A stretch of 64,000 bases of DNA from Bacteroidota bacterium (GCA_029572935.1 JAKQHM010000052.1:62001-126000); one strand, 5' to 3'. Counted from the first letter of the stretch, positions 179 to 11,981 are shown. The notes: generated by a model not told the origin, from the letters alone. Made by a program: numbers and translations.

Positions 179-221
179 GGCACAAGTCTTCCCGCCCAGG
201 CGGGACAGGAATACTTGAGAC
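179..221 (+). repeat. Family A imperfect-palindromic repeat, copy A1
   Basis: ggcacaagtcttcccgcccaggcgggacaggaatacttgagac; matches the family A consensus GGCACAAGTCGTCCCGCCAAGGCGGGACAGGAAGACTTGCGCC. Confidence 0.85.
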
Positions 222-316
222 GATATAGGAGCTGGAATATTAAGAGCAAGCTATTGATCGAAGTTAAAAAAATGTTAAAATTTAACTAAATATTAAAAAA
301 ATATTTAGGAATAATT

Positions 317-324
317 TATTTTTG
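317..324 (+). promoter_or_regulatory. Candidate Bacteroidota -7 box (TATTTTTG) upstream of the lipoprotein gene
   Basis: Matches TAnnTTTG; followed by AAC as in the 4433-4440 box; no clear -33 TTTG at the expected spacing. Confidence 0.35.
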
Positions 325-1683
325 AACAAAATTATATTTTATGTTACCACCAACCACCAACCACCAACCACCAACCACCAACCACCAACCAGTAGGTATT
401 TAATTAGGGTTAGGAATCTAATATGGGTAACAGTGTGTTTATTTTTAATTCAAGCCTGTACACATTGGGAGCAAGTCGAAACAGCATCATCAGGAAATTC
501 GATTGATTTAAAACCTCGGACAAGTTGTGAGCCTGATTATAGTGATGGTCGTTTAAATTTTACAGACTCAGCTGAATATATTTGTTTCTTAGATTATTTA
601 TATGATTTGACTTATGGAGATTCTACCCTTATCTCAGTAGATTCTATTTTAAACGAGATTGAATCCGATCTGGGTCATGTGTCCTTAAGGAGTCAGGCCT
701 TTGATCAGGATGGTGATTATGATCCTGATTTGTCACAAGATATTTTTTTAGGCGATGATATATTAAGATCTGTACTAAATGAATATTATGAAGTGAGAGT
801 GGGTACAAACATTGTGGTGCATCAATGCCCAACTGCATTGTATATCATAGATGGCAACTCATCGTCTGCCTCTTCATCAGTCACAAAGCTAAGAAATTCA
901 ATAAAAGGAGAATTACTCCCATTGTCTGACTTGGATACCAATATGACGGTTATTCATTTTGGAGATGATCAAACTGATTTAGGGCCCAGGAGTCCTTTGT
1001 GCGATTATAAGATTTTTATAGATCAAGACAGATGTCTGGATCCGCTCTCCGTTACCATTACTGTTGAATATAGAGGACAATTGACCACGGATGAATGTAG
1101 AGGTACAGTCAATTTGGGCGATGGTACCACTATCAATCTCTCCCCTCCGGCAAAAGCTTTTTTAATATCGCACACCTATACTTCTTATGCTGTTTTAACT
1201 GTTGCATTTGATTTTAAAGGTGAAATTTTAGGAGTCCCTGATCAATGTAATTATGCCACTTCCCGAAGTGTTGATACCCGGTCAAGGACTTGTGAACAAA
1301 AATTGATGACAGTTGAGGTATCAAAAGTTTCGACAGATGGCCAGTATAGACTCATCCAAAGGGTCAGCAGTGACTTTGATGGGTGGGGATATTATGTGGC
1401 CAACAAGACCATCGCGCAAAAGTTGATTTCCAGTAAATTCAAATCATACAAGGTGGATCGCATTGATTCTGATATAGAGGCTACTTTTAGGAATGTAAAT
1501 TGTATTTATCAGGACGATGAGGCTGATTTTGATTTTTGCAGAAATTGTAAGGATGAATTGGCTCGGAGGAGAGAAAGTTGGAGTAGTAGTTACCATGCCA
1601 ATGGCGATGTATTAGGAAGGGCAAAAATCAGAGAAGGTTCGTTGCAACTAAGTCAAACCCAAAGTCTGCCCCACTGTCAGTAA
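322..1683 (+). CDS. Cys-rich secreted lipoprotein of unknown function; 5' end contains a heptanucleotide repeat
   Basis: 453-aa ORF with lipobox-like LFLIQAC; frame opens only from TTG (322) in this assembly; the ATG at 341 is out of frame because of the heptamer tract. Confidence 0.6.
   Translation: MNKIIFYVTTNHQPPTTNHQPPTSRYLIRVRNLIWVTVCLFLIQACTHWEQVETASSGNSIDLKPRTSCEPDYSDGRLNFTDSAEYICFLDYLYDLTYGDSTLISVDSILNEIESDLGHVSLRSQAFDQDGDYDPDLSQDIFLGDDILRSVLNEYYEVRVGTNIVVHQCPTALYIIDGNSSSASSSVTKLRNSIKGELLPLSDLDTNMTVIHFGDDQTDLGPRSPLCDYKIFIDQDRCLDPLSVTITVEYRGQLTTDECRGTVNLGDGTTINLSPPAKAFLISHTYTSYAVLTVAFDFKGEILGVPDQCNYATSRSVDTRSRTCEQKLMTVEVSKVSTDGQYRLIQRVSSDFDGWGYYVANKTIAQKLISSKFKSYKVDRIDSDIEATFRNVNCIYQDDEADFDFCRNCKDELARRRESWSSSYHANGDVLGRAKIREGSLQLSQTQSLPHCQ
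344..388 (+). repeat. Heptanucleotide tandem repeat (ACCACCA)x6 + ACC
   Basis: Direct reading: accaccaaccaccaaccaccaaccaccaaccaccaaccaccaacc. Confidence 0.9.
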
Positions 1684-1713
1684 GATGTTTTATCAAACAT
1701 GTAAAGTGAAACC

Positions 1714-2577
1714 ATGGAGGGAATTGTAAGGAATTTAGTCATTATATTAATATCGGGTAGCCTAACCCCAGCTCTAATCTGCCAGGAATCCAACTGGAAA
1801 ATTGATCCGAAAGTGAACTTGTTTTATGGATACACCGGAAACAATGTAACGTACGAAGTAAAGAAGTTTAATTCCGTCAAATTTACATACCGGGCCAACC
1901 AGTGGCGAGGACCTGGCATAGATTCATCAAAATTTATCAAACGAGAAGAATATAATGGGATTGTCCAAACAAGAGATTACTTCACCTGGGAGCCGGAGAT
2001 CAGTCTGCGGCGCCAGTTTTGGAATAAAAGGATGGACGTAGGACTCAAGTTTTTCTACCGGATGAAAAAGGTGGATATCCAATATTACTTTCAGTATCCA
2101 TTTGATTATAAAAATCCGGATTTTAGTACATTTGAAAATAGCACTTCTGCAAATGTACATTATTTTGGTTTTGGACTCCAGTTTGGGTATCATTTTAAAA
2201 GGCCGGATATCTGGATCCGTGCCGGTATGGAATACGAAGCCAATAATAATAGTAATAACTCAAGTGGATACATTAGCACTTTGCTCAGTTCAGAAGGATT
2301 TGAATTTAAAAAGGTATTGGATAGAAGCGGCTACAAGTTTGGAATTGATTTAGGCAATGCATTTCGTAATTATAATTTTGAGATCAGCAAGTTTTTTGGT
2401 CCCAGGCTCTATGGAGGGCTGAGCGTTAGGTTTAACGCACCTGGTGATGAAGATATCAGTATTTCTGAACTATTTTCATTATTTGACACGAATAAACAGG
2501 AATTGTTACAAAAGGGATCTATTGTGATTAAAGACATATTGTTTGGTTTGCATTTTGGATATTTATTGGATTTATAG
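1714..2577 (+). CDS. Secreted/outer-membrane beta-barrel-like protein, paralog 1
   Basis: Signal peptide, aromatic/alternating strand pattern; shares FYGYTGNNVTYEVKKFNS..YNGIVQTRDY with the next ORF. Confidence 0.65.
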   Translation: MEGIVRNLVIILISGSLTPALICQESNWKIDPKVNLFYGYTGNNVTYEVKKFNSVKFTYRANQWRGPGIDSSKFIKREEYNGIVQTRDYFTWEPEISLRRQFWNKRMDVGLKFFYRMKKVDIQYYFQYPFDYKNPDFSTFENSTSANVHYFGFGLQFGYHFKRPDIWIRAGMEYEANNNSNNSSGYISTLLSSEGFEFKKVLDRSGYKFGIDLGNAFRNYNFEISKFFGPRLYGGLSVRFNAPGDEDISISELFSLFDTNKQELLQKGSIVIKDILFGLHFGYLLDL

Positions 2578-2601
2578 GTCTAGATTTTATAAGAACATAA
2601 A

Positions 2602-3465
2602 TTGAGCATGATTGAATATCGATTTTCATTGATCAATGGAAAATTATTTTCATTTTGTTTGTGGGTGATTCTTCACACAAGTACTCTGGCTCAATGGAAG
2701 GGGTTTGACCTATCCATCCAAGGTGGTCTGCTGTATGGATATACAGGGGATAATGTGAATTATTCAGTGAAGAAATTTAACAGCTACAATGCGCGCTCTA
2801 ATCCTGATTACTGGAAGGGGGCTGAAAGCTTACCAGATGAATTGTATAAATTGAAATATTACGAGGGGATTACAGAAGTTCGGGATTATGTTTCGGCCCG
2901 GATGGATTTCCAGTTACGGCGGATTTTGTTTTGGGATCGCATGGATCTCGGGCTGAGGATGGGATATTTTTTCAAAAGAAGAGATTACGATTATTATATT
3001 CTTGATCCAATATTTTTAACCTGGCCGGGCAGTTTACTTCATTTTCCTACCACATCGGAATATTTGCATTACCTGAATCTTGGAGTTCAGCTGGGTTTCA
3101 GACTGCCTCGATACAAGTCTTGGCTGAGATTCAGTCTGGAGCGCAGTATCAACTTCAATCGGAATGTGGATTTTGTCATGGCCTATGACCTGTATGGGCG
3201 AATGGACTTCAGAGTGCGTCACATACGCAAGTCTGGATGGGACAGAAGTCTGCCTTTGACTGTAGAACTGACCCGGACTGTCAGTCAGAATTGGTCGGTA
3301 GGAGTAAATGCGAGATTTTTGATGAGGCGAACATCTGATGAAAGTGTAACTGAGGAGTTTGAACTGATCGACACATTTGATCAGGAGGTATTGCAGAGAG
3401 GATTATACAGGATGAAGGATATTTTCGTGGGGATCCACGCAAGCTATCGGATATGGGGTAATTAG
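2602..3465 (+). CDS. Secreted/outer-membrane beta-barrel-like protein, paralog 2
   Basis: LLYGYTGDNVNYSVKKFNS..YEGITEVRDY, co-linear with the upstream ORF; same length (287 aa); TTG start in track. Confidence 0.65.
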   Translation: MSMIEYRFSLINGKLFSFCLWVILHTSTLAQWKGFDLSIQGGLLYGYTGDNVNYSVKKFNSYNARSNPDYWKGAESLPDELYKLKYYEGITEVRDYVSARMDFQLRRILFWDRMDLGLRMGYFFKRRDYDYYILDPIFLTWPGSLLHFPTTSEYLHYLNLGVQLGFRLPRYKSWLRFSLERSINFNRNVDFVMAYDLYGRMDFRVRHIRKSGWDRSLPLTVELTRTVSQNWSVGVNARFLMRRTSDESVTEEFELIDTFDQEVLQRGLYRMKDIFVGIHASYRIWGN

Positions 3466-3620
3466 GGTCAGTGTATGAGCATACCGAGACTGAAATTTTA
3501 TGTCTGATTTATGAAATTTCGAAAAAATAAAGGAGTCAATGGATATATGAACCTCTACTGGAGAAGTAATTCTGGATAATCAATATTTGGAAATATCGGG
3601 CCGTGATGGGGAAGTAGGCA

Positions 3621-3675
3621 GGAGGAGCAATCGGTGCATGAAAACAGGATCGCAGTTGCAAACTGCGACCATCGA
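3621..3675 (+). repeat. Family B palindromic repeat, copy B1
   Basis: AGCAATCGGTGCATgAAAACAGGATCGCAGTTGCAAACTGCGACCATCG; stem TCGCAGTT-GCA-AACTGCGA. Confidence 0.8.
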
Positions 3676-3693
3676 ATAGACGTGCGGCGACAG

Positions 3694-3743
3694 GGATCGG
3701 TGCATCAAAACAGGATCGCAATTGCAAACTGCGACCATCGTGT
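3694..3743 (+). repeat. Family B palindromic repeat, copy B2
   Basis: ATCGGTGCATcAAAACAGGATCGCAaTTGCAAACTGCGACCATCGTGT. Confidence 0.8.
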
Positions 3744-3895
3744 TTTAATAGAGACCAGGAAAATTGTAGTATTGGATTACAGGTAATATGTGCTTGGAGA
3801 TCGGTATTCAAATTTTAGCTCAATTAAGATACTTGCGTCTACATCAATTATAGTATAGGTACAAGACATCCCACCAGGGCGGGACAGGAATACTT
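3744..3895 (+). pseudogene. Duplicated 3' end of the FISUMP/T9SS gene plus its downstream sequence
   Basis: Near-identical to 9277-9428; 3745-3786 still encodes LIETRKIVVLDYR*, the terminal residues of the CDS ending at 9319. Confidence 0.85.
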
Positions 3896-3900
3896 GCGCC
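3858..3900 (+). repeat. Family A repeat, copy A2
   Basis: ggtacaagacatcccaccagggcgggacaggaatacttgcgcc. Confidence 0.85.
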
Positions 3901-3916
3901 AACAGGGAAAAGGAAA

Positions 3917-3959
3917 GGCACAAGTCTTCCCGCCAAGGCGGGACAGGAAGACTTGCGGC
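3917..3959 (+). repeat. Family A repeat, copy A3
   Basis: ggcacaagtcttcccgccaaggcgggacaggaagacttgcggc. Confidence 0.9.
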
Positions 3960-3982
3960 AATAAAAGGAATGGAAAAGGAAA

Positions 3983-4025
3983 GGCACAAGTCGTTCCGCC
4001 AAGGCGGGACAGGAAGACTAGCGGC
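3983..4025 (+). repeat. Family A repeat, copy A4
   Basis: ggcacaagtcgttccgccaaggcgggacaggaagactagcggc; 66 bp after A3. Confidence 0.9.
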
Positions 4026-4048
4026 AATAAAAGGAATGGAAAAGGATA

Positions 4049-4091
4049 GGCACAAGTCGTCCCGCCAAGGCGGGACAGGAAGACTTGCGCC
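4049..4091 (+). repeat. Family A repeat, copy A5
   Basis: ggcacaagtcgtcccgccaaggcgggacaggaagacttgcgcc; 66 bp after A4; matches consensus. Confidence 0.9.
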
Positions 4092-4118
4092 AACAGGGGC
4101 CAACAGGGGGTAGGCAGA

Positions 4119-4174
4119 GGGAGCAATCGGTGCATTAAAACAGGATCGCAGTTGCAAACTGCGATCATCGTGTA
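4119..4174 (+). repeat. Family B palindromic repeat, copy B3
   Basis: GGGAGCAATCGGTGCATtAAAACAGGATCGCAGTTGCAAACTGCGAtCATCGTGT. Confidence 0.8.
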
Positions 4175-4230
4175 GGAATGGAAAAGGAAAGCAGGAAGTA
4201 CTTGAGACAATGGATGATGGAATGATAAAA

Positions 4231-4273
4231 GGCACAAGTCGTCCCGCCCAGGCGGGACAGGAAGACTGGCGCC
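4231..4273 (+). repeat. Family A repeat, copy A6
   Basis: ggcacaagtcgtcccgcccaggcgggacaggaagactggcgcc; preceded by a truncated A right end near 4190-4208. Confidence 0.9.
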
Positions 4274-4340
4274 AACAATGGGTTTACTTCCTATTTCCAC
4301 CAACATCCGCTCTCACTCTGTTTCTCATTCTTTTAAAAGT

Positions 4341-4383
4341 GGCATAAGTCATCCCGCCCAGGCGGGACAGGAAGACTTGCGCC
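4341..4383 (+). repeat. Family A repeat, copy A7
   Basis: ggcataagtcatcccgcccaggcgggacaggaagacttgcgcc. Confidence 0.9.
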
Positions 4384-4409
4384 AAGAGGGTTATCATGGA
4401 GAATTTTTT

Positions 4410-4440
4410 TTTGAAAATTATTGACATTTCTTTATTTTTG
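4410..4440 (+). promoter_or_regulatory. Bacteroidota-type promoter TTTG-N19-TATTTTTG
   Basis: TTTG at 4410-4413 and TATTTTTG at 4433-4440, 19-nt spacing, upstream of the 4523 CDS. Confidence 0.6.
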
Positions 4441-4522
4441 AACCAGCTTCAACTGTCATGACCGTTTTTGGAAATCCCCAGAATTCGGGGAAATGCTTAT
4501 ATTTCAATTTAAATCGCTCCCT

Positions 4523-7500
4523 ATGAATTTGAAAATTCCATTGCTTCTATGCTCGATCAGCTTTTGTTCGTGGCATCATATCAGCTCACAGAGCCAGACG
4601 AAAGACAGAATGTCGGAAATCCCGGGTTCAACGGCTGGCAGATTCTACGAAGGGAAGGATAGAGTATTGTACAACTACACCAGCGATTGTACAAAGTCAT
4701 GGGTATACAAATCCACTGACGAAGGTGAATCCTGGGATCCTATTGTGAATATTTCATTTCCCAAGGAATCCGAGTTTAACTTGAGCTCGGATGGGACACT
4801 ATTCACCAAGAACCACAACGAGGCTTATTATTCAACGGACAATGGAGACAGCTGGACTCCCTTTCAGACCAGTAATTGGTCCTCGTATAAATATCTAAGT
4901 GGTTCCTCGGTGGATAATATTTTTGTCCTGGTTGGTTCAGCAGTCTACAGAAGTACCTCGCAGGGAGCCAATTGGACCAAAGTCATCAACAATGTGAATG
5001 GCACTAAAATGATTTTTTATCAGGATCCTTCCACTCAATTTTTATATATCTGTTCTGAAAATGAAATTTTTCAATCGAAGAATTTGGGAATGAACTGGAA
5101 CAGTTTGTTCAAGGATCGTTTTTCCGGAGTGGAAATGCCAAGGATGATCAGTGGTGCCAACAACCGGATCTATTTGGCAGGTCATGATTACATATGGGTG
5201 CTTTCCAATCAGGGGACCCTGCGTACCAAAACCAATCTGGTAAAAAGCAGTCAAAGAATGGTCCATCTTTGTCAGACAGATTCTGGACGATTGATAGCAT
5301 TTGAATTTTCGTCCAATTATTATTCAGACAATGAGGGAGGAAGCTGGAAAGAATATAATAATTCCAGTGGATTGGTCCTGAATCAACTGTTTCATTCGTC
5401 GTTTGGGGTTTTATTTGGGACAGCTGATCACAATTCAGCCATTTACAGATCAGAAGATAGAGGACAAAGCTGGCAAATATCGACCAAGGGGATACAGGGG
5501 TCTATGGTTATGGATATTTTGCATTTGACCAAAGACCGTTATTTTGTAATGAATGAAAATGGGTATTATCTCACTGAGGATGGAGGGAGGAATTACATAC
5601 TGATTCACCAGTTGAAGAGCAGATATTATTTAAATGCTTATTCCAAGTATAAGCTGATGTGTGTTCTTGGGGATCACTTCTTTTATGCTGATGGCAATGA
5701 AATATACCGGTATCATATAGTGAATGGGCAAAAGAAATTGATTTATACTATAACACAAAGTGGATTCAACGGAATGGCATGCAATGCTTCCAATCAAATG
5801 TTGTTTTTTTCTACGCGTTCGAACTTATATCGCTCTTCGGATTTGGGAGACCGATGGTTTAAGCTGAGGACGCCTGTGACCGTAGAATCCATGGGGCAAC
5901 CCATCATCACGAACGAAGCTCTGGTGATCAATATCGGTCCAAGCATCTATCGATCGATGGATTATGGTAATCAATGGACCAGGACAGGAGATTTTCCCGA
6001 TTTTGTTGATGTACTTCATAGTCCATATCCATCCATGATTTATTTTGTTCAGAGGGATAGTTTAGGGTATACCGATCTCTTTCAATCTTTTGATGCAGGA
6101 TTGAGCTGGCTCAAATCCGATATATCAAACCCGCTTCCCAATAGAGAGGAATTTGCTGTGTGGATCAATAATCAAGGCGATCTTTTTCTGAAAGGTTTTG
6201 GGGGTGAAGTATACCGATCTTTTGATATGGGTCAGAGTTTCGCGTTATATCACGATATTGGAGAGAATGAAACCGGAATATTTGTGGGTGATGATCAAAG
6301 GCTCTATGTGAAAGGTAATTGCTTTTTTTACAGATTGGCGGAGCCTACCTCTGATCGGAAGATTGCAAAAGGAATTTTATTTAAGGACGATGACCAGAAT
6401 TGCAACCAAGAACCTACTGAGTCAGCTCAATCAGGAGTTCAGATACGCGTCAGCGACGCCAACTTTACACGATTCCTGTATTCCAATCCTGTGGGGGAAT
6501 TTTATTTTGAACCTCCTGCTGGTGATTTCGAATTGGAGGCAAGTAATATCAGTAAATATCAGAATTCTTGCATTCTCAAGTTAAATGGTGCCAGTCTGGA
6601 TTTCACCAAGACCATTGAGCTGGGCTTACAGGAATTGAAAAAATGTTCTGAGCCCGAGGTGGACTTAAGTATTCCATTGCTGAGGAGGTGTTTTGAATCC
6701 ACCATTTACCTGAGGTATGGAAACAAGGGAACAGACATAGCCAAAAAAGCAGAGGTTGAACTGATTCTGGATCCCTATCTTGTATTTGTCAGATCCAGTC
6801 ACTCCAATATCCAGGTAAATGGAGACACAGTACGTTTTATCCTTGGAGATTTACCCAGGGACTTTTATGATAGACTGGAAATAACCGTCAAAGTCTCCTG
6901 CACAGCCCAATTGGGTCAGAAGCACTGTATAGAAGCAAGAATCGGATCGGACGAAGGATGTATTTCGGAATCTTCAGCTATTATAAAGACTTCCGCGAGT
7001 TGTATGGGAGATTCGGTTTTGTTGACCATTTCCAATTTAAGTTCTGTCGCGACGAGCAGTCTGAGATCCTGGAAACTGCTGGAGTTGGATCAAAACTCCA
7101 TTCAGACCATCGCATCCGGATTTTTTAAACTGAAGGGTTTTGAAAACAAGAGTTTTTCCATTCTGGCCTCCGAACGGGAACAGTTATTTTCTGCCGAACA
7201 GGAGGAGTCCTATCCTTATAACAAAGTCAGTCAGACCCCTGTCAGCAATTGTTTGAACCATCCGGGATTCAGGAATTCCATCGATGAGGATGAACCGTTT
7301 TATGATCTGGAATGCCGGACCAATGTAGGCAGTTATGATCCAAATGACATCACAGGACTGCCTCATGGTTTGGGACCGGACAAGAGGATTGAAGATCAGC
7401 AGGAGTTGGAATACACCATCAGGTTTCAGAATACCGGAACCGATACGGCATTCCATGTAGCCATCGTCAATGACCTGCGGACTACCAATCTGGATCCGGG

Positions 7501-8038
7501 AAGTATTGTTCTGGGCTCTTCATCGCATCCATACGTCATGAGTTTGGTCAATGGGAACAGCTTGATTTTTTCATTCAACAACATCATGCTTCCGGATTCA
7601 CACGTCAACCCGATCCAATCCAATGGTTTTTTTAAATATAAAATTAAACCCAGGAAGCAATTGCCCAGGAACATCCAATTGCAGAATAGGGCTTCTATCT
7701 ATTTTGACTACAATGATCCGGTGGAGACCAATACAGAATTGCATACCATCGGTCTTCCTTTGGTTTCATCTGACACTGATATCACACCCACCGAGGATAT
7801 TGCATTTTTTTTAAGTCCCAATCCTGTTTTTGATTTTGTCAGATTACACTTTACTGGAGTCGATAGAGGTATATCCAGGTTTGAGATCAGGGATTTATGG
7901 GGCCGTAGAGCAAAGTGGGTCTGGTATGATGCAAATAGCCATATAGTGGACATTCGGAATTGTCCGGTGGGAATCTATTTTGTTTACCTTGAAATGGAAG
8001 ATGGGCGTCGTTTATGTCAGAAACTTGTGAAACAATAA
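4523..8038 (+). CDS. T9SS-secreted protein with Asp-box/BNR (sortilin/sialidase-like) repeats, a DUF7619-like domain and a C-terminal sorting domain
   Basis: Repeated S.D.G.SW motifs (STDEGESWDP, STDNGDSWTPF, SEDRGQSWQIS); GSYDPNDITGLP..IRFQNTGTDTAFHVAIVNDL..ASIYFDYNDPVETN; C-terminal FLSPNPVFDFVRLHF..; ORF track start 4493, ATG at 4523 precedes the signal peptide. Confidence 0.85.
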   Translation: MNLKIPLLLCSISFCSWHHISSQSQTKDRMSEIPGSTAGRFYEGKDRVLYNYTSDCTKSWVYKSTDEGESWDPIVNISFPKESEFNLSSDGTLFTKNHNEAYYSTDNGDSWTPFQTSNWSSYKYLSGSSVDNIFVLVGSAVYRSTSQGANWTKVINNVNGTKMIFYQDPSTQFLYICSENEIFQSKNLGMNWNSLFKDRFSGVEMPRMISGANNRIYLAGHDYIWVLSNQGTLRTKTNLVKSSQRMVHLCQTDSGRLIAFEFSSNYYSDNEGGSWKEYNNSSGLVLNQLFHSSFGVLFGTADHNSAIYRSEDRGQSWQISTKGIQGSMVMDILHLTKDRYFVMNENGYYLTEDGGRNYILIHQLKSRYYLNAYSKYKLMCVLGDHFFYADGNEIYRYHIVNGQKKLIYTITQSGFNGMACNASNQMLFFSTRSNLYRSSDLGDRWFKLRTPVTVESMGQPIITNEALVINIGPSIYRSMDYGNQWTRTGDFPDFVDVLHSPYPSMIYFVQRDSLGYTDLFQSFDAGLSWLKSDISNPLPNREEFAVWINNQGDLFLKGFGGEVYRSFDMGQSFALYHDIGENETGIFVGDDQRLYVKGNCFFYRLAEPTSDRKIAKGILFKDDDQNCNQEPTESAQSGVQIRVSDANFTRFLYSNPVGEFYFEPPAGDFELEASNISKYQNSCILKLNGASLDFTKTIELGLQELKKCSEPEVDLSIPLLRRCFESTIYLRYGNKGTDIAKKAEVELILDPYLVFVRSSHSNIQVNGDTVRFILGDLPRDFYDRLEITVKVSCTAQLGQKHCIEARIGSDEGCISESSAIIKTSASCMGDSVLLTISNLSSVATSSLRSWKLLELDQNSIQTIASGFFKLKGFENKSFSILASEREQLFSAEQEESYPYNKVSQTPVSNCLNHPGFRNSIDEDEPFYDLECRTNVGSYDPNDITGLPHGLGPDKRIEDQQELEYTIRFQNTGTDTAFHVAIVNDLRTTNLDPGSIVLGSSSHPYVMSLVNGNSLIFSFNNIMLPDSHVNPIQSNGFFKYKIKPRKQLPRNIQLQNRASIYFDYNDPVETNTELHTIGLPLVSSDTDITPTEDIAFFLSPNPVFDFVRLHFTGVDRGISRFEIRDLWGRRAKWVWYDANSHIVDIRNCPVGIYFVYLEMEDGRRLCQKLVKQ

Positions 8039-8212
8039 AATCAACTCTTAAATGGAAAAGCTCTATTCATTGCACCATTATGAAAAATTTCAGGTTTTAC
8101 CTATTCGTTTGTTTTGAAATTGCTATTAGACGTCAATGTATTTTTTAGGTTCCGGGTTCTTATTTGAATTCATTTTCGATGTAGTGCTGAGAATATATAA
8201 GAGTGAAGGAAA

Positions 8213-8255
8213 GGCACAAGTCGTCCCGCCAAGGCAGGACAGGAAGGCTTGAGAC
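8213..8255 (+). repeat. Family A repeat, copy A8
   Basis: ggcacaagtcgtcccgccaaggcaggacaggaaggcttgagac. Confidence 0.88.
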
Positions 8256-8277
8256 AATGGATGATGGAATGATATAA

Positions 8278-8320
8278 GGCACAAGTCGTCCCGCCAAGGC
8301 GAGACAGGAAGACTTGCGCC
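8278..8320 (+). repeat. Family A repeat, copy A9
   Basis: ggcacaagtcgtcccgccaaggcgagacaggaagacttgcgcc; 65 bp after A8. Confidence 0.88.
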
Positions 8321-8374
8321 AACAGAGTATATTAGTTTTAATACATTCAATTGTGCGAATTAATAATTAAGAAT

Positions 8375-9319
8375 ATGCGAAGTGGATTACTTATAATTTT
8401 TGGGATATGTTTTTATTTTGAAAATTCATTTTGTCAGGTAAAAGATTATGAAGGCAATGTTTATGATACCGTACAAATTGGTAACCAAACCTGGTTAAAC
8501 CGTAATATCAGATCCAAGTTTTATTCAGACGGAAATCCGATTAAAAACTCAGATTATAAATGCGTAAACGGTGATTGTCTTAACAGTGATACCTTTGGAC
8601 TGCTGTACAATTTTTCAGGGCTCACAAAAAATGAAAATACAAAAAGAATACAAGGTATATGTCCAACGGGATATCTTATTCCGACACCTAGTGAATGGCA
8701 TCAACTTATGTTAACTCTAAATGCAGATACTACCTGGCTTTGGAAAGGAGCTTACAATTATGTTTCGAATAAAGTTATCTCCCGTTCATACGGGGGTTCA
8801 AATTCTTCGGGTTTGAATATTGTTCCTTCTGGAGTCTTTGCCCTTGGAAATTATTATAATTTTGGTAGAGGCGAGTTTTATAAATTAGTTGAATCAACAT
8901 TAATCAAAGGTATTACAATTTTTTTTGATGGATCTACTAATGGGACTATCAGAATTGATACTTTTCTGTCTCAAGAAATTGCTAGATCAAGTGAGCAATA
9001 TCTGCCTTGCAGATGTATTAAGTATTCAGGCTCAACCTCGGTAACAAATCCAAATAACAAATTACAATTTAACATTTTTCCCAACCCTTCTTTAGATGGT
9101 AGCATAACATTGGAAGCAGACAAAGAACTAATTGAAAGTAATTTTGAAATACAAATATTTTCCGATTTAGGAGTTATGATCTATCGAATACAAGTCCCAT
9201 TTTCAAAAAGTATTAAATTATTACTACCTGGAGGGGTATATTATCTGAAGGTCATGGATGGACACCATAATCCGAATTTAATAGAGACCAGGAAAATTGT
9301 AGTATTGGATTACAGGTAA
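8375..9319 (+). CDS. FISUMP (Fib_succ_major) domain protein with T9SS C-terminal sorting domain
   Basis: VKDYEGNVYDTVQIGNQTWLNRNIRSKFYSDGNPI..CPTGYLIPTPSEWHQLM; C-terminal FNIFPNPSLDGSITL.. Confidence 0.85.
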   Translation: MRSGLLIIFGICFYFENSFCQVKDYEGNVYDTVQIGNQTWLNRNIRSKFYSDGNPIKNSDYKCVNGDCLNSDTFGLLYNFSGLTKNENTKRIQGICPTGYLIPTPSEWHQLMLTLNADTTWLWKGAYNYVSNKVISRSYGGSNSSGLNIVPSGVFALGNYYNFGRGEFYKLVESTLIKGITIFFDGSTNGTIRIDTFLSQEIARSSEQYLPCRCIKYSGSTSVTNPNNKLQFNIFPNPSLDGSITLEADKELIESNFEIQIFSDLGVMIYRIQVPFSKSIKLLLPGGVYYLKVMDGHHNPNLIETRKIVVLDYR

Positions 9320-9390
9320 TATATGCTTGGAGATCGGTATTCAAATTTTAGCTCAATTAAGATACTTGCGTCTACATCAATTATAGTATA

Positions 9391-9433
9391 GGTACAAGAC
9401 ATCCCACCAAGGCGAGACAGGAAGACTTGCGTC
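9391..9433 (+). repeat. Family A repeat, copy A10
   Basis: ggtacaagacatcccaccaaggcgagacaggaagacttgcgtc; part of the 9277-9428 duplication. Confidence 0.85.
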
Positions 9434-9531
9434 GGCAAGTCAACAGAAGCTGATTGTTCAGTACCTTGCATTAACAAAGCAATAACATAACATTGACAAT
9501 TTATTGATTTTTATTTTTTTTTGCGTTGATG

Positions 9532-9539
9532 TAAATTTG
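9532..9539 (+). promoter_or_regulatory. Candidate Bacteroidota -7 box (TAAATTTG)
   Basis: TAnnTTTG match about 145 nt upstream of the 9684 CDS; no convincing -33 element. Confidence 0.3.
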
Positions 9540-9683
9540 TCTGACTGAAAAGTTGATCAAGGCCTGAACACCAAATCAGTGGGTGAATATTCAAATGCCT
9601 GCTTGAATCATTTAAGCGACAGCCATCGAACACACCCCGAAATACAAGGTAGGTGGTTACACTTAACTTTTTAAATCTTTATT

Positions 9684-10214
9684 ATGAAATCCATCTATTT
9701 TTTTATAGGCGTTTTAATTACTTATTTTATTTTATCTTGTCAGCCAGAAAATTCTGACGTTTTAACAGTTGGGAAATTTTCAAATGAATTGAATCCGCGA
9801 AGCAGCCTAAATGTAATATGGGATATTTGCAAGCCTTGTAGCGAATCAGATGCATCGTTTAGGGTTACACAATCAGGATCAAGTAATTCTTTAGAATTTA
9901 CTCCTTCTTGCGGAACACCTTCTTGTGTAGATGATGGTAGTGGTACTCTTTGTGCTCAGGCCAGGGTGGTTATTACTATTAGTGGCAGCACATTGGATTG
10001 GAATCCTTCCACCTGCACATTGAATTTACCAAGTGGTATCAAATATTTTATCAGGCAATACTCTGGCGGCACGTGCCAAACACATGGATTTGATTGGAGC
10101 GACTCAACTTGCACATCATCTCCGATGGGCAATATTTACATAAAATCACAGGTGTATCCCTCATGTACTCCATATGTGTCCAACAATACTTGTATTGATG
10201 TTGTTCCAAAATAG
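9684..10214 (+). CDS. Cys-rich secreted lipoprotein, unknown function
   Basis: Lipobox-like YFILSC after the signal sequence; 10 further Cys in the mature region. Confidence 0.7.
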   Translation: MKSIYFFIGVLITYFILSCQPENSDVLTVGKFSNELNPRSSLNVIWDICKPCSESDASFRVTQSGSSNSLEFTPSCGTPSCVDDGSGTLCAQARVVITISGSTLDWNPSTCTLNLPSGIKYFIRQYSGGTCQTHGFDWSDSTCTSSPMGNIYIKSQVYPSCTPYVSNNTCIDVVPK

Positions 10215-10285
10215 CAGAATTTTCATGTTTGGATTCATTCATGGATTCAGGTATATTTGTCATTCTTAGTAAAATATCTATACAT

Positions 10286-11809
10286 ATGTCTATTGCAAGG
10301 AATTGGTCTGCAGTTATCATCTTGTGGCTGAATATTTTTTATTGGGCAAGTGCTCAAAGAACGGTGATCGATTCAAGTTTTGCCGATTTTGGATGGTTAC
10401 ATACGACGCTCAGGCAAACTTATGAAGTGAATACCATCCTGAATTCCAAACAAGACATAGTGGTGGTAACAGGTGACAAACTTCAATTTTTCGACCCTAC
10501 AGGGAATTCTTTAAATCTAGGATCTTATCCTAATCCTTTGAATTGGACCGGATCAGAGGGGATTTATTTAATGTACGGCGCAAGTTTATCGGAGGATAGT
10601 TTTCTATTGCTTAAATATTCATCGTCAATTCCCAGATCTGTCTATGAAAAAGTATCTGTAAGAAGGATTCATACATCCAGTTTATCGGATTCCAGTTTCT
10701 TTGACAAAGGAAAACTTGTTATTGGTGATGAATATATATATTCATACACAGGAAATATTTGCAATAATACAAAGGATGGTGATAGTTTCATTGTTCCTAA
10801 ACTTTTAAAGGGAAGTCAAAAAGAAATTTTGGAATTTGTCAGGGTAAATAATCTAAATGATATTATCAGGCACGAATTGGATGTGACTGAATGGTGCCCG
10901 AATGGCGATGATTTAACATATTTTCATGTTTCCAATATTCACTATCATCCCGATGATCATTTTTATGCCGTGGTGAGTTATGAATGTTTTGATTCTCTGG
11001 GAAGTTATTTATTGAGATTTAATAATGATATGTCCTTGGACAGTAGTTTTGGAATGCTTGGATATTATAATTTGGGTAGGACTGCTAGATTAAATAATGA
11101 AGCTATTTTGATAGAACAGATTGTTTCTGATAAAGATGGCTATTTGTATATGATATATAACGACAATTTAAATAAGCGGATTTTAATTGAAAAAAGAGAT
11201 CAGAAAGGTTTATTGGTCGATGAATTCGGAGATCGTGGAGTGTTAGTCATTTCCGGATATTTATTTAAAATGTATCATAATTGGATGAACACTGCATATA
11301 ATGGAAGTTCTAACCAGTTATACTTCTTTGCTTATGATTTCATTAAAAACACTTCGAGACTTTTCGTGATCAACACGGATGGAACGATGGATAAGGAGTA
11401 TGATAAATCAGGTGGATTTTCAATTGAGGGGATAGTTAAAAATTTAAGCTTAATGTCTGGTGATTGTTATCTTGTCACAGGATCTAAGCACAGTCAATCT
11501 CCAAATACTTTTTATTTAGTAAAATATTGCAATAGACTTGTTTCAGATGTAGATGAGACCAAGAATGATATGGTAGATCCCTATATTTTACATAAGAATG
11601 GTGAACTCATCATAAAAGACTTTGGTGATGACTTGCAAACCATTGAATTGTACAATTTAATCGGACAGAAATTAAGTAGTTTTCCAATAACAGCTAATCA
11701 ATCTGAAATTATTTTAAGTTATCATGAAATGACAGCAGGAGCTTATATTTTGTCATTTAAGTATAAAGATGGTAAAATTATTTGTAAAAAAGTCATGGAC
11801 CCTAGGTAG
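10286..11809 (+). CDS. T9SS-secreted delta-60-repeat-like protein
   Basis: NNDMSLDSSFGMLGYYNLG and TVIDSSFADFGW delta-60-like motifs; C-terminal sorting domain-like tail; ORF track start 10229 (TTG), signal peptide begins at ATG 10286. Confidence 0.65.
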   Translation: MSIARNWSAVIILWLNIFYWASAQRTVIDSSFADFGWLHTTLRQTYEVNTILNSKQDIVVVTGDKLQFFDPTGNSLNLGSYPNPLNWTGSEGIYLMYGASLSEDSFLLLKYSSSIPRSVYEKVSVRRIHTSSLSDSSFFDKGKLVIGDEYIYSYTGNICNNTKDGDSFIVPKLLKGSQKEILEFVRVNNLNDIIRHELDVTEWCPNGDDLTYFHVSNIHYHPDDHFYAVVSYECFDSLGSYLLRFNNDMSLDSSFGMLGYYNLGRTARLNNEAILIEQIVSDKDGYLYMIYNDNLNKRILIEKRDQKGLLVDEFGDRGVLVISGYLFKMYHNWMNTAYNGSSNQLYFFAYDFIKNTSRLFVINTDGTMDKEYDKSGGFSIEGIVKNLSLMSGDCYLVTGSKHSQSPNTFYLVKYCNRLVSDVDETKNDMVDPYILHKNGELIIKDFGDDLQTIELYNLIGQKLSSFPITANQSEIILSYHEMTAGAYILSFKYKDGKIICKKVMDPR

Positions 11810-11872
11810 ACTTTTTTGCAAGAATTTGTCAGGATAATTTTACTTGAATGTAGGTTTAAATAACAAAATAAA

Positions 11873-11915
11873 GTAACAAATCATCCCGTCAAGGCGGGAC
11901 AGGAAGACTTGCGGC
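11873..11915 (+). repeat. Family A repeat, copy A11 (divergent left end)
   Basis: gtaacaaatcatcccgtcaaggcgggacaggaagacttgcggc. Confidence 0.8.
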
Positions 11916-11938
11916 AATAAAAGGAATGGAAAAGGAAA

Positions 11939-11981
11939 GGCACAAGTCGTCCCGCCTCGGCGGGACAGGAAGACTTGCGCC
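11939..11981 (+). repeat. Family A repeat, copy A12
   Basis: ggcacaagtcgtcccgcctcggcgggacaggaagacttgcgcc; 66 bp after A11 with the same spacer as A3-A5. Confidence 0.9.

Follow-up and report, generated by a model that had tools for sequence, protein, structure and literature searches.

The repetitive extragenic palindromic (REP) elements and bacterial interspersed mosaic elements (BIMEs) of Escherichia coli and the REP doublets forming hairpins (REPINs) of Pseudomonas are bulged imperfect palindromes with a one-sided 5' foot, lie mostly 3' of genes, and flank, as inverted copies, the gene of a REP-associated tyrosine transposase (RAYT, also called TnpA_REP) (PMC2817692, PMC3116915, PMC8266576). 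The one-sided foot of REPs is canonically GT[AG]G (PMC3733652, PMC6006769, PMC8266576), and the partners of the Bacteroidetes RAYTs of subclass 2.6 have been reported to be without this foot (PMC6006769). Here we describe family A, a 43-bp hairpin repeat found in a 64,000-nucleotide stretch of DNA from a Bacteroidota bacterium (G000:C6:62001-126000, hereafter the window), which belongs to a 67%-complete metagenome-assembled genome of 2.26 Mb in 61 contigs. Sorting tails of the type IX secretion system (T9SS), together with the gene content in general, suggest that the host is a Saprospiraceae-like member of the Bacteroidota. Our results indicate that one clade of RAYTs, which are HUH/Y1 single-strand transposases, very probably has family A as its REP elements in this Bacteroidota family.

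The features of the E. coli and Pseudomonas elements listed above are common to family A, which differs from them in having a TG[TC]T instead of a GTAG foot, in forming no inverted doublets in its own genome, and in numbering tens and not hundreds of copies. With the subclass 2.6 systems (group 5 of Bertels as cited in PMC6006769) it shares occurrence in Bacteroidota, a RAYT of about 180-195 amino acids (aa) with the motifs NH[LIV]H, WQ, and YIH[QN]NP and a wide HuH-Y spacing, and flanking hairpins without a GT[AG]G foot that have copies elsewhere in the genome. Whereas the published partners of that subclass are described only as 'atypical secondary structures' with weaker folds (PMC6006769), family A is a strong hairpin with a defined outer stem and a variable inner hairpin, and it forms head-to-tail arrays. 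A palindrome within a palindrome is also found in the nested REPs GTAG-15 of A. variabilis, GTAG-23 of T. roseum, and CGTC-1 of H. neapolitanus (PMC3733652), but in family A it is the loop of the RAYT-linked hairpin that holds the inner palindrome, and empty as well as filled forms flank RAYT genes.

Association of the hairpin with a RAYT clade

A reading of the window made from its sequence alone (the sequence-only reading) had reported at least 12 same-orientation copies of the 43-bp element at 179-11981 and none in 12-64 kb. Both statements were confirmed: a search with the 18-nt core GTCCCGCCNNGGCGGGAC, allowing up to 3 mismatches, gave 12 matches in the 64 kb, every one of them on the + strand and within 189-11966, whereas dinucleotide shuffles averaged 0.14 matches and never had more than 1. 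With the entire 43-mer and up to 3 mismatches, 7 matches were obtained in the window where 0 were expected. The confinement to the first 12 kb holds within the window, but the cluster itself starts at C6:60577, 1.4 kb upstream of it.

A covariance model of the element (R1) was run over the genus, which comprised eight congeners. In the same-genus genome G250, its matches form inverted pairs about 700 bp apart, each enclosing an open reading frame (ORF) of 195 aa with the Pfam domain Y1_Tnp; there are three such genes. These ORFs score 89.8-95.5 bits with the NCBIfam model NF047646, 'REP-associated tyrosine transposase' (cut-off 80), and below the cut-off with the IS200 model NF033573, which separates them from IS200 transposases. 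The outer stem around all three genes is that of family A, GGCGCAAGT...ACTTGTGCC. The flanks read GTTGGCGCAAGTTTTCAAACTTGTGCC at contig C70 and GCTGGCGCAAGTCTCTCTGACTTGTGCC at C41, and the C121 gene has on one side a full bulged family A element that contains CCTGTCCCGCCATGGCGGGA. RAYTs with 62-71% identity, also with GGCGCAAGTT-type hairpins, occur in G251, G145, and G147, the last from another genus. Inverted flanking hairpins were thus found at three RAYTs in G250 and at others in G147, G145, and G251, and in the own genome only at a relic. The seven RAYTs carrying the outer stem form one clade with support of 99/99 that spans two genera, and the RAYTs outside the clade have unrelated palindromes.

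The G250 RAYTs contain NHVH, WQ (as WQQ or WRQ), Y[IV]HNNP, a HuH-Y spacing of 83, and SS. By motif comparison only, they agree with the TnpA_REP subclass 2.6 of Bacteroidetes, for which the motifs given above are published together with a spacing of about 82 and SS. A PDB sequence search returned no match, and an AlphaFold model of the RAYT built from 5 sequences, with a mean predicted local distance difference test score (pLDDT) of 36, was not used.

The relic in the own genome is C31:21570-21674, a 34-codon RAYT C-terminus (YFYSSAWDNTGHKGLIDVHIFNLPGSLIGYVYVG-stop) that is closest to the seven clade members (scores of 80-109, against at most 65 for all others). Three tandem family A copies start about 22 bp after its stop codon, an oppositely oriented minimal hairpin, TGCGCAAGTTTTTTAACTTGTGCC, precedes it, and the spacing is the same as at the intact G250 genes. 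The proposal in the sequence-only reading of a non-autonomous REP-like family is therefore borne out in that the repeat is tied to a RAYT clade and a relic lies beside an array in the same genome; its other branch, a 3'-untranslated-region (3'-UTR) RNA element, is not, as discussed below. No RAYT was seen in the window, as had been stated.

Elsewhere in the own genome there are three Y1_Tnp genes and RAYT fragments. Two Y1 transposase genes, at L013 1-1400 (C19) and L012 2900-3800 (C12), adjoin head-to-tail palindromic repeats of their own, AGACGTAGGCGCAGCCTACGCCT and CCGCCCTGAAGGGCGG, respectively. At a contig end, C32:42486-42629 (L100) is the cut-off N-terminus of a second RAYT of the C19 type with an in-frame TAG; it was among the candidates set aside, being of this other type.

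Hairpin fold, foot, and nested palindrome

The fold given in the sequence-only reading, with a 10-bp outer stem, a one-sided 5-nt bulge, and an inner stem, is correct. Columns 4/41, an A.C mismatch on the strand as read, form a G.T wobble on its complement, where the outer stem is therefore unbroken; in the alignment, these columns hold 41 A.C against 16 G.T cells. DNA folding gave -15.9 kcal/mol for the complementary strand and -13.6 kcal/mol for the strand as read. The complementary strand also carries the foot, (C)TG[TC]T or a near variant, before the copies: of these 28, 27 have T at position -2 and 25 at position -4, while the opposite end of the hairpin is far less conserved except at position +6. 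At the flanks of RAYT genes the foot is TGCT, CGCT, or TGTT. Since the mismatch turns into a wobble and a one-sided foot precedes the stem there, the consensus as read is probably complementary to the working strand. At most sites the element strand follows positive GC skew, but agreement extends to no more than about 6 of the 9 contigs (two of them probably adjoining), and the trend is not significant.

Position 11 of the hairpin is A, G, or T without a compensating change. Where it is T, an alternative fold pairing TTCC with GGAA is possible; it was set aside, as the alignment supports it no better than the first fold. The hairpin is much more stable than its shuffles (z about -5). Selection on structure had been suggested from kept stems and a variable apex, but the alignment lends this no support: a two-sided change occurs at 1 pair only, covariation does not exceed that of shuffles (329 of 500 reach the score), and conservation alone is therefore no proof of such selection.

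The same outer stem occurs empty and filled. Empty minimal hairpins of 23-24 nt are found in the own genome on C1, C20, and C34 and in G250 on C41 and C70. Filled ones comprise family A itself, G250 C121, G147 C32 (CTGCCC..GGGCAG), and G145 C64, where the inner palindrome has the opposite orientation. Both kinds flank RAYT genes. In G145 and G251 the inner palindrome is also found on its own, and a related TGTCCCGACATAAAGTCGGGA occurs in G211. Because hairpins with this outer stem can be empty or differently filled, and the inner palindrome is found by itself, including in apparent T-loops, family A could tentatively be seen as a composite in which an independent, loop-preferring palindrome (5'-CCTGTCCCGCC..GGCGGGA and relatives; CCTGTCCCG..CGGGA) was inserted into the minimal RAYT-linked hairpin and the nested unit was then amplified, although we regard this as rather doubtful. 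The loop may instead have diverged gradually.

Two further occurrences of such palindromes were observed. In G211 (L142-L149), a dispersed repeat, AATTGAAAAT-TGTCCCGACATAAAGTCGGGA-TGAAAATTG, has about 11 copies. In G145 and G251 (L083 2820-3680, L114 230-420, L120, L116), fragments resembling the 3' part of a tRNA, which ARAGORN did not call, are repeated in tandem; the CCTGTCCCGCC..GGCGGGA palindrome takes the place of their T-loop and a palindromic TGGCGCC..GGCGCCA that of the anticodon arm.

Copies and their duplication

The own genome contains 28 full-length family A copies on contigs C6, C31, C45, C20, C26, C4, and C34. With the covariance model, C59 was found to carry one more, diverged copy, and C1, C20, and C34 to carry short forms of 23 nt. 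No copy lies inside any credible gene. Full copies and minimal forms together make up a multi-copy family of intergenic hairpins within the 20-65 nt expected of a REP in the sense of REPtron. The outer-stem pattern was counted 14 times in the own genome, 8 times in G250, once in G145, and 0 times in six other congeners, with 0 matches in reversed controls. A pattern search of 248 genomes of the family with up to 2 mismatches found the element in the own genome only and missed the diverged forms later caught by the covariance model. An exact 19-mer had 2 matches in GTDB r220 contigs, in unrelated phyla, and 0 in IMG/VR.

All copies in the window are on the + strand, the probable working strand being the - strand. 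The copy at 179..221 was found by the core search. At 3858..3900 lies a copy that has its upstream flank in common with the degenerate copy at 9391..9433; the 40 nt upstream of the two are identical by flank comparison. A tandem triplet with a 66-bp unit occupies 3917..3959, 3983..4025, and 4049..4091, the last with the exact consensus, and it is followed by copies at 4231..4273, whose flanks are common with those of C6:60577 upstream of the window, and at 4341..4383, whose upstream flank is identical to that of C6:60687. Tandem pairs are located at 8213..8255 and 8278..8320 and at 11873..11915 and 11939..11981; the final copy has exact consensus stems, and 27 bp beyond it is the end of a convergent gene of the Sir2 family. 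The seven matches to the whole 43-mer are the triplet and the copies starting at 4231, 4341, 8278, and 11939.

Family A copies are therefore not independent, as they include tandem repeats, with units of 57-66 bp, and, through segmental duplication, copies that share flanks on one or both sides. In the pairs 60687/66341 and 65858/71391 (C6 coordinates), 40 nt upstream are identical and the downstream sequences are unrelated. With flanks shared on one side only, the breakpoints fall at the element, suggesting that the hairpins are points of recombination or template switching. A larger duplicated segment, comprising the 3' end of a gene and the element, lies at about 3746..3890 (+ strand) as a copy of about 9279-9433, with its right breakpoint at the element. 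Tandem and segmental duplication, breaking at the elements, accounts for part of the spread of family A in the own genome.

A second REP-like palindrome, family B (GATCGCAGTTGCAAACTGCGA), is the hairpin of a different RAYT (C40) and occurs on the + strand at 3648..3668, 3714-3734, and 4144-4164. It is also present at C6:60504, and close variants flank the RAYT at C40:44048-44901. Its interleaving with family A at one intergenic site means that two REP families have collected there, and the left end of the 3746-3890/9279-9433 segmental copy abuts a family B palindrome, the right end lying at the family A element. A short tandem repeat of CCAACCA units at 343-391 lies at the 5' end of an ORF that putatively encodes a secreted protein.

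Genomic context and the nature of family A

Gene context was taken from ORF-based gene calls only. The genes on either side of a copy are co-directional or convergent, most copies being 3' of a gene, and no site between divergent genes was seen among those with genes on both sides; REPs are usually placed in this way (PMC3733652). The earlier statement that every copy reads along its flanking genes does not hold: the pair at 11873/11939 lies between convergent genes, as do many other sites, and the C45/C20 site opposes its left neighbour. The intergenic, mostly 3' placement, the stability of the hairpin, and the T9SS-type secreted proteins encoded by several upstream genes are what would be expected of a 3'-UTR RNA element, that is, a terminator, processing, or mRNA-stability hairpin selected for function in surface-protein genes. 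This is nevertheless very unlikely. A downstream location is typical of REPs anyway (PMC3733652), and the neighbouring genes are diverse, encoding a K+ transporter, Sua5, TP_methylase, a glycosyltransferase, Sir2, and an S9 peptidase. One site opposes its left neighbour, covariation is at the level of shuffles, Rfam gave 0 matches to family A, and terminator-like sites at the copies are few and on the - strand only, with no + strand intrinsic terminator at any copy.

The tandem units, the shared flanks, and the single orientation within each cluster would also fit a passive local satellite, an ordinary hairpin multiplied by slippage and recombination alone and never mobilised by a RAYT. Against this very improbable explanation, the copies are spread over at least 7 contigs with mostly unrelated flanks, and RAYT genes flanked by the hairpin occur in a second genus as well as in three other species of this one. 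A bulged, intergenic, RAYT-tied palindrome might also be a canonical REPIN/BIME-type or CGTC-type REP, but that would be most surprising here: neither a GT[AG]G nor a CGTC tag is present at either end, and full copies form no inverted pairs in the own genome, where inversion is seen only at the relic, as it is around RAYT genes elsewhere. The canonical type is thus already contradicted for this genome.

Several observations weigh against a REP family of the RAYT clade as well. The foot is TGTT, TGCT, or CGCT and not a 5' GT[AG]G, and the own genome, which is 67% complete, yielded no intact RAYT of the clade, although a copy may lie in the missing third. The copies in the own genome occur only singly or head-to-tail, and dimers of the latter kind are a rarity among the REP families described (PMC3733652). 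Their number, in the tens, is low for a REP family, and part of it reflects duplication and not transposition. Family A is thus unusual in its foot, its head-to-tail arrangement, and its variable inner hairpin.

Taking family A as the REP family of this clade, and by analogy with known REP/RAYT biochemistry, the complement of the consensus would, when single-stranded, fold as 5'-(C)TG[TC]T-GGCGCAAGTC...GACTTGTGCC. The RAYT would recognise the foot and outer stem, cut beside the hairpin, and transfer the unit, by copying or moving it, to single-stranded DNA between genes. Within the loop of the minimal 23-24 nt hairpin, the inner GC hairpin and its one-sided bulge of 5 nt would be an optional and variable component. 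As the family's RAYT is known in the own genome only as a relic, the present copies there are probably relics too, whose multiplication is due mainly to tandem and segmental duplication, the hairpins serving as junctions for recombination.

Our findings link a strong, defined hairpin family to a Bacteroidota RAYT lineage whose partners had so far been described only as 'atypical secondary structures', and they provide a candidate recognition unit for testing, the TG[TC]T foot with the GGCGCAAGT stem. The wider significance is modest, since selfish elements of this kind are known and only the sequence form is new. Comparing the empty, filled, and differently filled hairpins next to related RAYT genes could reveal which part of a REP is read by the transposase and how new REP types originate.

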